Positions 7,183 through 42,818 of a stretch of 64,000 bases of DNA are shown one piece after another (the first letter of the stretch is position 1; every line of letters starts with the position of its first letter). The translations under genes and the position numbers were made by a program. The DNA comes from Streptococcus salivarius (GTDB lineage Bacteria > Bacillota > Bacilli > Lactobacillales > Streptococcaceae), in assembly GCF_002094975.1 (NCBI RefSeq), contig NZ_CP015283.1, positions 729,501 to 793,500 on the forward strand, read 5' to 3'. The notes beneath the pieces were generated by a model. The model saw nothing but the letters and a program-made list of their open reading frames with translations, did no database searches and was not told the DNA's origin.

Positions 7183-9048
<1,866 letters not shown>

Positions 9049-9053
9049 TATAA

Positions 9054-9092
9054 AAAATCTTTTCTTGCAGGAGCAAGAAGAGATTTTTCTTT
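9054..9092 (+). terminator. Terminator after proS
   Basis: A 13-bp stem (9056-9068 with 9073-9085, one G-U) followed by a T run. Confidence 0.85.
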
Positions 9093-9137
9093 TGTAGTGA
9101 CAATGATAAATTGAGAGAAAAGAGAGTAAATTCCAAT

Positions 9138-9166
9138 TTGACAGAATTGTCTAAATAGTGTAAACT
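9138..9166 (+). promoter_or_regulatory. Promoter of the Phe/Tyr leader and ABC importer operon
   Basis: Consensus TTGACA (9138-9143), exactly 17 bases, TAAACT (9161-9166). The start point should lie near 9173, about 23 bases before the leader peptide ATG and about 355 bases before the importer gene. Confidence 0.8.
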
Positions 9167-9195
9167 TAAAACTATCATAACTACGGAGGCATCAC

Positions 9196-9261
9196 ATGCT
9201 TAACAAAGCGACCCATTTGGGAAATCTTAAAGCTTTTTATTACTTTAGTTTCTTTAGATAG
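9196..9261 (+). CDS. Phe/Tyr-rich attenuation leader peptide
   Basis: A 21-codon ORF starts at ATG 9196 with SD GGAGG (9185-9189) at 6 bases and ends at TAG 9261. Residues 14-20 read FYYFSFF: four Phe and two Tyr codons of seven, just before Arg-stop. The aromatic codons overlap one arm of a possible hairpin (9243-9252 with 9307-9316, 10 of 10 pairs with one G-U), and an attenuator follows at 9335-9428. This is the standard layout of a ribosome-mediated attenuation leader that senses charged tRNA-Phe and tRNA-Tyr. The gene controlled is the ABC importer at 9529. The ORF and pairings are seen directly; the regulatory role is inferred. Confidence 0.8.
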   Translation: MLNKATHLGNLKAFYYFSFFR

Positions 9262-9334
9262 GACGTTTGTGTTTCAGGATACAAGCGTCAGTCAGTTTGT
9301 ATCTATGAAGCTAAAGCATTTTGTGATGGATTAG

Positions 9335-9428
9335 CCGATTAGATGAATAGGTCTAACCGGTGACATAAGCTAGCCTGTGCTAGTCAAGATGCATAAAACC
9401 AGTTGGGCCTGTCCTAACTGGTTTTTTT
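9335..9428 (+). promoter_or_regulatory. Attenuator: competing antiterminator and terminator hairpins
   Basis: Three exclusive pairings can be drawn. Sequestering hairpin: CCGATTAGA (9335-9343) with TCTAACCGG (9352-9360), 8 of 9. Antiterminator: 9349-9361 with 9398-9410, 12 of 13 including two G-U. Terminator: 9396-9407 with 9413-9424, 12 of 12 including one G-U, followed by seven T (9422-9428). The antiterminator uses the right arm of the first hairpin and the left arm of the terminator, so only one state is possible at a time. A small CTAGC/GCTAG hairpin (9370-9383) lies between. No T-box sequence is present. Confidence 0.75.
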
Positions 9429-9528
9429 CATACCGTGGTCTATTTTTAATTTTCATTTGACGCTATCGTCTTGGAAAAATCATAAAAGAAAATTGGAAAT
9501 AGATAGAATAAAAATAGAGGTATACAAG

Positions 9529-11469
9529 ATGAAGAAATTCTTGGTCAGTATGATGGCTGTTATCACAGCTGTCCTCTTAGTAGCATGTTCCAATGCTTCT
9601 AATAAAGATTTGGTTCACGTCGGTGTGCTCCAATATGTGGAACATCCTTCCTTGTCAGCGACCCGTAAAGGGTTCATTGAAGAACTTAAAGAGGAAGGTT
9701 ACGTCGACGGTAAGAACATCAAAATCGATTATCAGAATGCACAAGGAGATCAGTCTAACTTGCAGACGATTTCTCAGTCGCTTATTGAAGATAATGATGT
9801 CATGTTGGCTATCGCAACTCCAGCAGCCCAGTCTTTGAGTAGTTTGACAAAGGACAAGCCAATTCTCTTTACAGCTGTTACAGATCCAGTTTCAGCTAAA
9901 TTGGTTAAGTCTATGGACAATGTTGGAGGAAATGTGACAGGGACAAGCGACATGTCACCAATCAACAAACAAGTCGAGTTGTTGAAAAAGGTCCTTCCAA
10001 ACACTAAAAAAGTTGGGATTATGTACACGACCAGCGAGCGTAACTCAGAAGTTCAGGTTGAAGAAGCCAAGAAATACTTCAAGGAAGCTGGTATTGAAAC
10101 GGTTATCAAGGGAATTTCATCAACCAATGATATCCAAGATACAGCCAAGAGCTTGATGAGTCAGACCGAAGTGATTTTCATCCCAACTGATAATACTATT
10201 GTTAGTGCTATTAATACCTTGGTAGATCTTTCTAAAGAGACTAAGGTTCCAGTTGTTGGTAGTGACGCTGGTAGTGTAGAAAAAGGTGTCCTGTTCACTT
10301 ATGGAACTAACTATGAAGCGCTTGGACGTCAAACAGGTAAGTTGGCAGGCCGTGTTCTCCGAGGTGAGAAGGTAAAGGATGTCGATGCCGAGTATCCTAA
10401 AACCCTAAATGTTGTGGTTAACCATGACATGGCTAAAGAACTTGGTATTGATGTTTCTAGCATTAGTGACGAGGAATCTAAAGCATCAACGCAAGATGAC
10501 AAACCAATTGCTAAAAAAGATAAGGGTGTCATTAAGCTTAAGGTCAATAAGTCTTCTAAAAAAGGATTTTCAAATGTGGTGCTAACTGCCATTTCTCAGG
10601 GACTTCTCTGGGCTATTATGGCTATTGGGGTCTTCATTACCTTCCGTATTTTGGACCTTGCTGATTTGACAGCTGAGGGGGCCTTCCCACTTGGTGCTGC
10701 TACGACAACTATCATGATTATCCGTGGAATCAACCCAATCTTTGCGACTCTAGGTGGTTTTGTAGCTGGTATGCTTGCTGGAGCTGTGTCTGGCTTTATG
10801 CATACGAAAATGAAGATACCAGCACTCTTAACAGGGATTATTACCTTAACAGGGCTCTATTCAGTTAACCTTTTGGTTCTTGGAAGTGCCAATGTCTCTC
10901 TTTCAGGACATAACACGCTGGTGACTATGGTTATGGATCTTGGTCTATCTAAGCTGAATGGTGTGATTCTATTAGGACTGATTTTTGTTAGTCTGGTAGT
11001 ACTTATGTTGGTTGTTCTCCTTAATACACAGGTTGGACTTGCTCTTCGTGCAACAGGTGATAACCTTGCCATGGGTGAAGCCAATGGTATCAAGGTTGAC
11101 CGTATGAAGATTCTTGGCTACATGATTTCCAATGGTTTGATTGCCCTATCAGGTGCCCTCCTAGCTCAAAACAATGGCTATGCGGATATGAATATGGGTA
11201 CTGGTACAATCGTAAATGGCTTGGCTGCAATCATCTTGGCTGAGGTTATCGTCAAGTATCTACCGCTTGGAAAACGTCTCTGGTCAATTGTCGTAGGAGC
11301 TGTTCTCTACCGTTTGGTCTTGGTTATTATCCTTGCCATGAACGTTGATGCTCAAATGTTGAAATTGGCTTCAGCCATCTTGCTTGCTATCATCCTTTAT
11401 GTGCCAGAAGTACGCCAAAAATTGAAAATCAGACCTAATAAATCCTTGACTCCAGGAGGTGACAAGTAA
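9529..11469 (+). CDS. ABC importer: substrate-binding lipoprotein fused to permease (TrpX-TrpY-like)
   Basis: The frame is open from 9457, but translation should start at ATG 9529 (MKKFLVSMMAVITAV, SD at 9516-9520), giving 646 residues. Residues 1-20 are a lipoprotein signal with lipobox LVAC and Cys20. Residues about 30-320 form a periplasmic-type ABC_sub_bind domain (HVGVLQYVEHPSLSATRKG, family of streptococcal TrpX). A charged linker (about 320-350, rich in K/D/S) leads into a LivH-like permease with about eight membrane segments (355-640). In other streptococci the two parts are normally separate genes. The ATPase gene overlaps its stop codon (TAATG at 11467). The family imports aromatic amino acids; the leader peptide here points to Phe/Tyr. 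Confidence 0.88.
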   Translation: MKKFLVSMMAVITAVLLVACSNASNKDLVHVGVLQYVEHPSLSATRKGFIEELKEEGYVDGKNIKIDYQNAQGDQSNLQTISQSLIEDNDVMLAIATPAAQSLSSLTKDKPILFTAVTDPVSAKLVKSMDNVGGNVTGTSDMSPINKQVELLKKVLPNTKKVGIMYTTSERNSEVQVEEAKKYFKEAGIETVIKGISSTNDIQDTAKSLMSQTEVIFIPTDNTIVSAINTLVDLSKETKVPVVGSDAGSVEKGVLFTYGTNYEALGRQTGKLAGRVLRGEKVKDVDAEYPKTLNVVVNHDMAKELGIDVSSISDEESKASTQDDKPIAKKDKGVIKLKVNKSSKKGFSNVVLTAISQGLLWAIMAIGVFITFRILDLADLTAEGAFPLGAATTTIMIIRGINPIFATLGGFVAGMLAGAVSGFMHTKMKIPALLTGIITLTGLYSVNLLVLGSANVSLSGHNTLVTMVMDLGLSKLNGVILLGLIFVSLVVLMLVVLLNTQVGLALRATGDNLAMGEANGIKVDRMKILGYMISNGLIALSGALLAQNNGYADMNMGTGTIVNGLAAIILAEVIVKYLPLGKRLWSIVVGAVLYRLVLVIILAMNVDAQMLKLASAILLAIILYVPEVRQKLKIRPNKSLTPGGDK

Positions 11470-12272
11470 TGGCTTTACTTAGTTTACAACAGATTCACAA
11501 AACCTTTGAAAAAGGCACAGTCAATGAAAATCACGTCCTTCGTGGTTTGGACCTAGACATTGAGCAGGGAGATTTTATCTCTGTCATTGGGGGAAATGGT
11601 GCTGGTAAATCAACCTTGATGAATTCAATTGCTGGTGTTCTTAGCATTGATGAGGGGGATATCTTGTTGGAGGGGCAATCTATTAAGAAAGCATCTGTAG
11701 ATGAGCGCTCTAAAGACATTAGTCGTGTTTTCCAAGATCCTCGAATGGGGACAGCGACAAACCTTTCTATCGAAGAAAATATGGCGATTGCCTATCGTCG
11801 TGGTAAGAAACGTAGCTTCTTTAAAAAGTCTATCACTGAAAGCGAACGTCAAGTCTTCAAGGAAGCTTTGGTAGATCTTGGTCTTGGTCTTGAGAATCGT
11901 ATGAAGACCGATGCTAATTTCTTGTCAGGTGGACAACGTCAGGCCTTGACACTTGCTATGGCAACCTTGGTTCGTCCAAAAATCTTGCTTTTGGATGAAC
12001 ACACAGCAGCCCTAGATCCTAAGACAAGTGATATGGTCATGAATTTGACACGTAAGATCGTTGAAGAACAAGAATTAACAACCCTTATGATTACCCATAA
12101 TATGGAACATGCTATCGAATATGGGAACCGTCTAGTCATGCTCTATCACGGAAAAATCGTCGTCGATGTGCGAGGTGAGGAAAAGAAAAACCTCACTGTT
12201 GCAGAACTTATGGACCTCTTCCACAAAAATAGTGGACAAGTCCTCAATGACGATGCCTTGGTACTCGGTTAA
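11469..12272 (+). CDS. ABC importer ATP-binding protein (TrpZ-like)
   Basis: A 267-residue ATPase with Walker A GGNGAGKST near residue 40, signature LSGGQRQALTLAMA near residue 150, Walker B ILLLDEHTAALDP near residue 175 and switch His in MITHNMEHA. It energises the fused permease encoded immediately upstream; the start codon overlaps the preceding stop (TAATG), so the two are translationally coupled. Typical for the branched-chain-like importers of this family, where one ATPase homodimer serves. The transcript ends at the terminator at 12286. Confidence 0.92.
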   Translation: MALLSLQQIHKTFEKGTVNENHVLRGLDLDIEQGDFISVIGGNGAGKSTLMNSIAGVLSIDEGDILLEGQSIKKASVDERSKDISRVFQDPRMGTATNLSIEENMAIAYRRGKKRSFFKKSITESERQVFKEALVDLGLGLENRMKTDANFLSGGQRQALTLAMATLVRPKILLLDEHTAALDPKTSDMVMNLTRKIVEEQELTTLMITHNMEHAIEYGNRLVMLYHGKIVVDVRGEEKKNLTVAELMDLFHKNSGQVLNDDALVLG

Positions 12273-27571: not shown

Positions 27572-27579
27572 AGTCCCAA

Positions 27580-27687
27580 CTAAGATAAAAACACAGTTCT
27601 GGTTGGTAGTCCAGACGTAGGCAAGCCTATCAGTAACCTTCCTCCTTGGTTGTCCATTCTTAGGGATAGATTTAAGGAGGTGCTGTC
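27580..27687 (+). promoter_or_regulatory. yjdF-type riboswitch
   Basis: A structured leader directly before a yjdF gene. Visible elements: hairpin TCTGG (27598-27602) with CCAGA (27611-27615), the GTAGGC/GCCTAT segment (27617-27630), and CCTCCTT (27641-27647), which is exactly complementary to the SD AAGGAGG (27674-27680). Pairing of the last two would hide the SD of yjdF, implying translational control. yjdF-motif RNAs upstream of yjdF genes in Firmicutes bind azaaromatic compounds. Assignment rests on gene context and the SD-masking arm; no covariance model was run. Confidence 0.75.
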
Positions 27688-42436: not shown

Positions 42437-42818
42437 TTGTGCAATTTTTGGATAATCGCATGGTTGCTAGTCTTCCATGAGGAAAGTCCATGCTAGCACT
42501 GGCTGTGATGCCAGTAGTGTTTGTGCTAGGTGAATTAATAAGCCTAGGGACTTGTTTTCAAGTTACGGCGAGTGAACTGGCTAAGTCTTCGGATAGGTTT
42601 TAGTAGCTCTGAAAGTGCCACAGTGACGGAGTTTTTAGGGAAACCTAAAAAGTGGAACGCGGTAAACCCCTCAAGCTAGCAACCCAAACTTTGGTAGGGG
42701 CATGGGATGGCTGGAAACGAACGGACCATCCTGACTGCTTTGCAGTAGACAGATGATTATCGAAGGAAGTGGTACCTAGTCACTTCTGGAACAAAACATG
42801 GCTTATAGAAAATTGCAT
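42437..42818 (+). ncRNA. rnpB: RNase P RNA, class B
   Basis: The catalytic RNA of RNase P. P1 is formed by GCAATTTT (42441-42448) and AAAATTGC (42809-42816). Conserved core segments are recognisable: GAGGAAAGTCC (about 42479-42489), GGGAAACC and GGTAAACCCC mid-molecule, and the 3' part with GACAGATGATTATCGAA before P1. It lies between gpsB and the RlmL-like gene, the standard streptococcal place. Ends are accurate to a few bases. Confidence 0.93.

Follow-up and report, generated by a model that had tools for sequence, protein, structure and literature searches.

The trp, pheA and pheST leaders of Escherichia coli are classical ribosome-mediated attenuators. The family described here resembles them in combining a leader peptide that contains codons for the regulated amino acid with alternative hairpins, an intrinsic terminator and a default-off pairing over the codons. 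It differs from them in its longer chain of helices, which runs through segments A–H, in the use of one core for different amino-acid operons, and in its occurrence in Lactobacillales. Leader-peptide attenuators of Gram-positive bacteria, namely those of ilv-leu in Staphylococcus aureus, hisS/hisZ in bacilli and, reportedly, ilv in Listeria, follow the same principle; by their descriptions, each serves a single gene set with one specificity, and this sets them apart. Passages of published work describe the S. aureus ilv-leu leader and cite predictions for branched-chain amino-acid genes of Lactococcus and Streptococcus (PMC5794164), and part of another report describes the hisS/hisZ leaders (PMC2965389).

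An earlier note on the DNA studied here regarded T-boxes as the usual solution for amino-acid genes in streptococci. Passages of two reports do place Trp T-boxes at Streptococcus suis trpX and at the transporter locus 1069 of Streptococcus pneumoniae (PMC9382623, PMC10942264), but the leader family proved to be widespread in the order. The T-box of S. suis trpXYZ offers a comparison: as that source describes it, it controls a homologous transporter and causes antitermination when an amino acid is short, but it senses uncharged tRNA directly (PMC9382623). The locus studied here has no T-box. Searches with Rfam detected none in the 64,000 nt of Streptococcus salivarius DNA that we analysed (the window) at the gathering cut-off, and none in positions 9050–9540 at E up to 10.

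Three further entries in the literature have been interpreted or catalogued in other ways. Two elements upstream of paralogous ABC-transporter operons of Streptococcus agalactiae, gbs2033 and gbs1262, were proposed to be riboswitches for aromatic amino acids; in the parts of that publication that bear on them, RNA-seq gave short terminated and long transcripts, and the gbs2033 element also precedes aroFBC-tyrA of Enterococcus faecium (PMC4448216). The term “leader peptide” is absent from the main text of that paper (PMC4448216). The trpB motif (RF04312), with over 900 representatives, is presented in sections of its report as a strong riboswitch candidate, with the caveat from its authors that a classic attenuator was not excluded (PMC11109978). 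The third, sRNA_2410 (RF02863), is catalogued as a small RNA.

We consider it very likely that a leader in the window is a ribosome-mediated transcription attenuator that senses the supply of Phe/Tyr and controls an ABC importer of aromatic amino acids. The features of the leader and of the genes downstream of it are all on the forward strand. The gene upstream (7183–9048), named from its sequence, is presumably proS, and a terminator at 9053–9088 separates it from the promoter-like site of the leader. The gene that would be regulated (9529–11469) encodes a TrpX-like substrate-binding protein (PF04392) fused to a permease (PF02653), and the next gene (11469–12272) encodes an ABC transporter ATPase. 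In the window, binding protein and permease form one protein of 646 residues; many other loci have a separate binding-protein ORF of about 320–340 residues. Elsewhere in the window are an azaaromatic (yjdF) riboswitch aptamer (27575–27673, 84.3 bits) and a bacterial RNase P of class B (42444–42810, 352.8 bits).

The leader has a short ORF with a Shine-Dalgarno sequence and mutually exclusive helices that end in a terminator or an antiterminator. The promoter-like site, TTGACA-17-TAAACT (9138–9166), was recognised by consensus match; it has 10 of 12 matches, which is weak by itself since the shuffled region averages 2.0 such sites. A Shine-Dalgarno sequence, GGAGG (9185–9189), precedes the leader ORF, MLNKATHLGNLKAFYYFSFFR (9196–9261), whose 21 codons end in FYYFSFFR. 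The putative sensing codons, F14 to F20 (FYYFSFF, 9235–9255), are marked out by conservation and by the ribosome-position folds discussed below. The remainder of the leader can be divided into eight segments with seven possible helices, A:D, B:C, C:D, D:E, E:F, F:G and G:H. Segment A (9243–9261), delimited by pairing and covariation, pairs with D through CTTTAGTTTC, the complement of GAAGCTAAAG at 9307–9316 of D. Pairing and folds define B (9262–9272), which forms a hairpin with C; C itself (9278–9289), which pairs either with B or with 9295–9303 of D; and E (9331–9345), which pairs with D or F. Segment D (9295–9316), assigned from conservation and folds, is nearly invariant and has A, C or E as its partner. 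By pairing, F (9349–9361) can join E in a sequestering hairpin or G in an antiterminator, and G (9396–9410) can join F or H. Segment H (9413–9424) and the T-run at 9422–9428, together 9413–9428, complete an intrinsic terminator, as both pairing and folding indicate.

Counted by hand, the pairs formed are 10 of 10 for A:D (9243–9252 with 9307–9316), 8 of 9 for E:F (9335–9343 with 9352–9360), 12 of 13 for the antiterminator F:G (9349–9361 with 9398–9410) and 12 of 12 for the terminator G:H (9396–9407 with 9413–9424), which is followed by seven T (9422–9428). The earlier note had listed the promoter-like site, the Shine-Dalgarno sequence, the ORF, these four pairings and the seven T, and each was recovered at its position. 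Its list did not have the hairpin B:C (9262–9272 with 9279–9289), the rival of that hairpin, C:D (9278–9286 with 9295–9303), or one of the two helices that make up D:E in the window, 9300–9305 with 9340–9345; the other is 9310–9314 with 9331–9335 (GCTAA with TTAGC). Positions 9180–9432 gave a better fold than any of their 200 shuffled versions (z −5.12). A simple terminator scan of the window did not list the terminator at 9396–9428, because its T-run lies partly inside the stem. In the window, no T-run follows the E:F hairpin, whose effect would be exerted by way of F:G and G:H. We also observed that, when the leader is folded in full, the start of its ORF (9190–9201) pairs with about 9316–9330, just 3ʹ of D, which might limit initiation.

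The host genome of 2.33 Mb has one copy of the element according to our model R1 (E = 3e-19; the next E is 5.58). Within the genus, the leader DNA of the window matched 25 of 147 genomes, its own included, and in distant relatives the match spans the aromatic codons to segment E, less than the whole leader. At 24 of the 27 loci of the genus search, one of them identical to the window, the N-terminus of the leader ORF varies while its aromatic end is kept; the other three are without the exact core used in that comparison. All 25 distinct pattern matches among the genus loci lie upstream of TrpX-like proteins, as determined by similarity clustering. RNAalifold, run on 23 sequences, returned A:D enclosing B:C, with 3 of 26 pairs changed on both sides. 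The conservation in relatives of both aromatic codons and pairings, on which the earlier note had made its reading depend, is thus borne out in the genus. Two genomes each have two copies of the element and TrpX-like genes within a few kb (G057:C1, with L013 and L026; G072:C1, with L016 and L027).

How far does the element extend beyond Streptococcus? A pattern in which the sensing codons are unconstrained, AGATAR N22–52 TTTGTATCTATG, was found in 163 of the 395 genomes of Lactobacillales searched and in 36 of 80 genera, and the reversed pattern, used as a control, occurs in 4 of the 395 genomes. A slightly narrower pattern, which also required two T before AGATAR, was found in at least 120 named stretches, some of them clear chance matches, from Streptococcus, Enterococcus, Tetragenococcus, Vagococcus, several Aerococcaceae-type genera, Schleiferilactobacillus and others. 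Conservation at AGATAR and TTTGTATCTATG is by construction, since both motifs are fixed in the patterns. From at least 216 distinct pattern matches, 198 loci with a B:C-like loop were kept; these are a part of the loci that exist, and at least two of the 18 dropped for want of that loop look real (L019, L211). L077 was treated as a chance match, which left 197 loci, and these were reduced to 132 by identical A/D stretch. The loci share descent, and all were found through a pattern that fixes two core motifs. By a strict rule, 171 of the 198 loci have a leader ORF led by a Shine-Dalgarno sequence and 27 do not. Copies outside Lactobacillales were seen in Terrisporobacter mayombei, Clostridium sartagoforme and another genome of the phylum (L078, L102, L253); these are Phe/Tyr leaders, and the genes that follow them were recognised by eye as BrnQ-like or NSS-like transporters.

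The codons in the leader correspond to the amino acid that the regulated genes handle, and for the aro and ilv/liv genes they do so without exception. Leaders were classed by their last nine residues; genes were grouped by similarity cluster, with one representative per cluster named through NCBIfam or Pfam. Genes of the shikimate pathway have a Phe/Tyr leader in 44 of 44 cases (aroE 27, DAHP synthase 10, aroB 5, aroC 2), and ilv/liv genes have an Ile/Leu/Val leader in 17 of 17 (Liv-type binding proteins 8, ilvE 4, ilvA 3, ilvB 2). Among the 198 loci, TrpX-like proteins follow 113 Phe/Tyr leaders and 10 Trp leaders. The other Phe/Tyr leaders precede a polar amino-acid binding protein (4), a 2-hydroxyacid dehydrogenase (1) or, named by eye, an NSS-type transporter, a BrnQ-like gene and an IS200-like ORF (1 each), and for 4 no gene was found; one Ile/Leu/Val leader precedes an OppA-like gene. 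At one locus (L202) a Phe leader (VFFNSNFR) precedes the gene of a D-isomer 2-hydroxyacid dehydrogenase, which may have a part in the metabolism of aromatic keto acids. Two leader classes occur together in ten genomes (G434, G348, G354, G374, G446, G357, G229, G377, G413 and G489). One of these, G348, has a Phe/Tyr leader before a TrpX-like gene and Ile/Leu/Val leaders before ilvA and ilvB; another, G357, has a Phe/Tyr leader before aroE and a Trp leader before a TrpX-like gene.

Codon changes are accompanied by compensatory changes in the paired strand D. Over the 132 loci with distinct A/D, the mean energy of A with its own D is −13.5 kcal/mol for Phe/Tyr, −11.8 kcal/mol for Ile/Leu/Val and −11.0 kcal/mol for Trp, and A is bound better by its own D than by the D of another class in 2806 of 2835 Phe/Tyr comparisons, 1773 of 1955 Ile/Leu/Val comparisons and 897 of 1220 Trp comparisons. 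When D was anchored on its own GCY and A on the serine or glycine codon, 113 of the 122 Phe/Tyr and Ile/Leu/Val loci could be fitted to one A:D layout. In this layout 99, 102, 107 and 112 of the 113 loci are paired at the four columns before the anchor codon, where C-G is seen exchanged for T-A and T-A for A-T, among others, and pairing over seven columns is 0.697, compared with at most 0.628 in 500 reassignments of D. The covariation that the earlier note expected of its pairings is thus seen for A:D, where codon swaps go together with changes in the paired strand and in the downstream gene; the comparative outcome that the note had named as refuting its reading was not observed. Two of the seven columns, which hold the central base of codon 6 (the one that tells Tyr from Phe) and the third base of codon 7, are paired in only 29 of the 113 loci. 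Among 102 Phe/Tyr loci, a fraction of 0.96 has Phe or Tyr at codon 6 and 0.90 at codon 7, with TAT, TAC, TTT and TTC all in use. Codons 6 and 7 are thus kept as Phe/Tyr although these bases rarely pair, as a coding constraint predicts.

The downstream helices are also found across the family. A terminator-like hairpin is present at 126 of the 132 loci, compared with 35 of 132 shuffles given to the same lenient finder, and was not found at the remaining 6; with a terminator score of at least 12, the counts are 119 of 132 loci and 0 of 132 shuffles. Compared with sequences in which the middle region was shuffled, the real F:G is stronger, with a mean z of −2.9 for Phe/Tyr, −4.1 for Ile/Leu/Val and −1.9 for Trp loci, and z is below −2 in 75 of 101, 14 of 16 and 3 of 9 loci, respectively. 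By the same comparison D:E has a z of −2.3 to −2.6 and falls below −2 in 59 of 101 Phe/Tyr, 8 of 16 Ile/Leu/Val and 7 of 9 Trp loci. The E motif was recognised in 107 of the 132 loci and in 627 of 6600 shuffles. At several enterococcal and Trp-type loci (L028, L068, L244 and similar ones), inspection by eye found the E:F hairpin followed by a T-run of its own, seemingly giving two terminators in series; at such loci D:E would be a direct antiterminator.

What would connect the position of the ribosome to the choice of helix? The ribosome is taken to cover 12 nt past the first A-site base, as in toeprint work. With the stop codon in its A site, it would cover the window leader to about 9271, nearly all of B. 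In our ribosome-position model, the transcript was folded to the end of E with the part under the ribosome removed; 24 of the 132 loci, those without a recognised E motif, were left out of the profile. For 86 Phe/Tyr loci, a ribosome placed at the stop codon gives a D:E share of 0.24; the share is 0.26 one codon before it, 0.44 at two and 0.67–0.69 at three to seven codons, and it then declines through 0.57, 0.30 and 0.17 at codons 8, 9 and 10; in the absence of a ribosome it is 0.07. The modelled stall positions that free D:E coincide with the sensing codons: Phe/Tyr residues are found 2, 3, 5, 6 and 7 codons before the stop in 0.90–0.99 of 102 loci, at codon 8 in 0.13 and beyond it in about 0. 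For 15 Ile/Leu/Val loci the share is 0.47 at codon 3, 0.64–0.65 at codons 4–7 and 0.51 at codon 8, and the residue profile is less sharp (0.59 at codons 5 and 8, 0.35 at codon 9). Trp-type loci have Trp at codon 3 in 9 of 10 cases and at codon 6 in 10 of 10; for 7 of these loci the D:E share is 0.71–0.74 at codons 3–6, 0.16 at the stop and 0.31 without a ribosome. In 43 Phe/Tyr loci, with assumed footprints of 9, 15 or 18 nt, the modelled stall window moves one codon for every 3 nt of footprint, and the D:E share is flat at 0.05–0.17 when E is shuffled.

In the minimum-energy folds of the window leader itself, stalls at codons 3–9 before the stop give both D:E helices. At positions 0 and 1 the fold contains C:D and GCTAA/TTAGC, at position 2 it contains C:D, and at position 10 it contains A:D. 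The earlier note had assigned the role of weakening the sequestering hairpin to GCTAA/TTAGC; that pairing does form in the window, but it also forms with the ribosome at the stop and so would not discriminate alone, and the helix 9300–9305/9340–9345 does. Without a ribosome, the fold to the end of E has C:D and additional pairing to the upstream leader, and the fold to the end of G has A:D around B:C. Ribosome-free folds of the window thus hold D in C:D or A:D, so that D is not free either way.

We propose the following sequence of events. When charged tRNA-Phe and tRNA-Tyr are plentiful, the ribosome would get to the stop codon and cover B, which would favor C:D, then E:F and then the terminator G:H. 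When Phe or Tyr is short, the ribosome would stall at about codons 15–19 and cover A, leaving B free. B:C would then form, D would pair with E before F is made, and F would be left for G, giving read-through. Without translation, D would be held upstream by A or C, so that the default state would be off. The parts of the leader, their conservation, the codon–gene match, the compensatory A:D changes and the freeing of D for E when the ribosome is suitably placed are results of computation. We infer that the ribosome stalls, that the leader responds to Phe/Tyr and that D:E leads on to F:G. The earlier note had named the link from stalling to antitermination as its weakest part. The link gains from the second D:E helix and from the alternation of B:C and C:D, but the equilibrium fold of the window does not support the step from D:E to F:G. 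When the window leader is folded at equilibrium to the end of G, F:G is at most 0.03 in every ribosome state, so the last step must rest on D:E forming before F is made and persisting. In the same folds of other loci, stalled positions exceed the stop position for D:E in 70–73 and for F:G in 69–72 of 101 Phe/Tyr loci, depending on position, and in 10–13 and 8–12 of 16 Ile/Leu/Val loci; Trp loci show no trend (D:E 2–6 and F:G 1–6 of 9). D:E exceeds the ribosome-free state in 94–96 of the 101 Phe/Tyr loci. Overall, the reading of the window leader as a ribosome-mediated attenuator is supported.

Two catalogued RNAs, sRNA_2410 and the trpB riboswitch candidate, appear to fall in the leader-peptide attenuator family. 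No Rfam family matches the window leader at its cut-off; RF02863 gives 32.3 bits (E = 0.0014) against a cut-off of 61, and RF04312 (cut-off 59 bits) has no match in the window or in its own genome. Of 20 relatives searched, RF02863 passes at 3 (212.5 bits at L226, 166.9 and 70 bits) and RF04312 at 2, L213 and L244, while 15 match neither. In enterococcal Phe/Tyr loci the RF02863 model takes in the last part of the leader ORF together with the hairpins after it; it differs from our family in being catalogued, in the entry consulted, as an sRNA. RF04312 matches Trp-codon loci of the family, and there too the difference lies in the catalogue, part of which gives it as a riboswitch candidate; at L213 its model begins at segment C and leaves the leader ORF out. 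At E up to 0.001, RF04312 occurs in 210 of the 395 Lactobacillales genomes, 59 of them over the cut-off, and in 4 of 398 genomes of a phylum sample. Two of these four have a leader (Trp at L252, Phe at L253); in the other two, L254 and L255, no leader was recognised by eye, and they are probably false matches. We inspected 73 RF04312 loci, taken from a part of those that exist. An ORF led by a Shine-Dalgarno sequence, with Trp near its end and ending about 8–33 nt before the RF04312 match, was found at 30 of 31 loci and at 35 of 40 lower-scoring ones; where several ORFs were possible, the one with most Trp was shown first in the 31-locus reading. Trp codons lie just upstream of RF04312 in 69 of the 73 loci, including four outside this rule: at L289 and L312 Trp is ten or eleven residues from the end, and at L318 and L324 there are Trp codons and no Shine-Dalgarno sequence was detected. 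L253 (Phe codons), L254, L255 and L322 have none. The gbs2033 and gbs1262 elements very likely belong to the family as well, by gene context: they lie upstream of paralogous ABC-transporter operons and, for gbs2033, also of aroFBC-tyrA, although they were interpreted as riboswitches.

Could these RNAs bind a metabolite, an aromatic amino acid or a precursor, as proposed for gbs2033/gbs1262 and for the trpB motif (PMC4448216 and, in the sections concerned, PMC11109978)? Strong conservation of segment D and the conserved hairpins would fit a riboswitch, but the near invariance of D may follow from its having three alternative partners. It is the codons that vary, switching with gene class; codon 7 is kept as Phe/Tyr though its measured base is unpaired; and in 65 of 71 loci the trpB motif comes directly after the end of a Trp-codon ORF led by a Shine-Dalgarno sequence, compared with 3 of 400 control windows, in which any candidate ORF was also accepted. 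We consider a riboswitch very unlikely. A structured RNA with no coding role is rejected by the same codon swaps.

The coding role could instead be that of a nascent peptide which, as in TnaC, arrests the ribosome and senses the free amino acid through its sequence, including the terminal Arg. An Arg precedes the stop codon in all Phe/Tyr, Ile/Leu/Val and Trp loci read in that frame, but this is largely by construction, since the pattern fixes AGATAR. At four loci (L009, L040, L049 and L156) the ORF stops early, in the TAG of TAGATAR; the Arg codon is gone there but the AGATAR bases are still present, so it is the bases that are kept, not the Arg. Phe and Tyr also replace one another, and entire classes of codons are swapped. 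Arrest by the peptide was rejected as the main reading on the loss of the Arg codon, and we regard it as highly improbable. The terminated leader might also be a small RNA with targets of its own in trans, as sRNA_2410 is catalogued. RF02863 matches 3 of the 20 loci searched with up to 212 bits, and the E. faecium RNA gives two transcripts on Northern blots in the part of its report that covers it (PMC5593968). A terminated leader would itself resemble an sRNA, however, and the position before amino-acid genes, the codon–gene match and the attenuator architecture point to a leader acting in cis; a role in trans seems to us extremely unlikely. An attenuator that reads Phe/Tyr supply through ribosome stalling is the reading that we retain for the window leader.

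The transporter genes offer a further view of leader specificity. The binding protein of the window is closest in sequence to 6hni (258.8 bits), which we take to be a tyrosine-binding protein of Clostridioides difficile, and then to 3lft (228.8 bits). The leader class separates a residue that, by alignment and spacing, corresponds to a reported specificity residue of the binding protein. Among proteins similar to that of the window, with L322 dropped and repeats removed (107 to 103 and 71 to 69), window residue 262 is Tyr in 99 and Phe in 4 of 103 unique binding proteins with a Phe/Tyr leader, and the position is Gln in 69 of 69 unique ones with a Trp leader; the two groups look like paralogous clades, so that this counts as a single association, not as many independent ones. 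Residue 262 aligns with a Gln of 3lft and is 40 residues from a conserved Asn, the spacing of N233 to Q273 in S. suis TrpX. Passages of the S. suis report give tryptophan as the ligand bound in 3lft and describe Q273 as important for ligand specificity (PMC9382623).

The principle of attenuation is known; what appears to be new is the family and the inclusion in it of an orphan riboswitch candidate. We found no description of the family as a leader-peptide system in the titles, abstracts and passages of open-licence PMC papers that our searches covered. We think it likely that there is one modular family of leader-peptide attenuators, with a shared RNA core and cassettes of Phe/Tyr, Ile/Leu/Val or Trp codons, that is spread through Lactobacillales and sparsely through clostridia as an alternative to the T-box. 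Such a family would use a relay of eight segments, compared with four in the classical trp leader, would account for sRNA_2410, the trpB candidate and probably gbs2033/gbs1262, and would have codons that predict the substrates of uncharacterised transporters.

If this is true, the trpB riboswitch candidate and an enterococcal sRNA would be members of one family of leader-peptide attenuators, which would end the search for ligands that may not exist. The codon cassettes would provide a way to predict transporter substrates, supported by their match with the reported specificity residue. Natural codon swaps on one scaffold, and the presence of two leader classes in ten genomes, would make a change of attenuator specificity directly testable. 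Ribosome stalling would then be a widely used device for the amino-acid genes of Lactobacillales, for which T-boxes have been thought to be standard.
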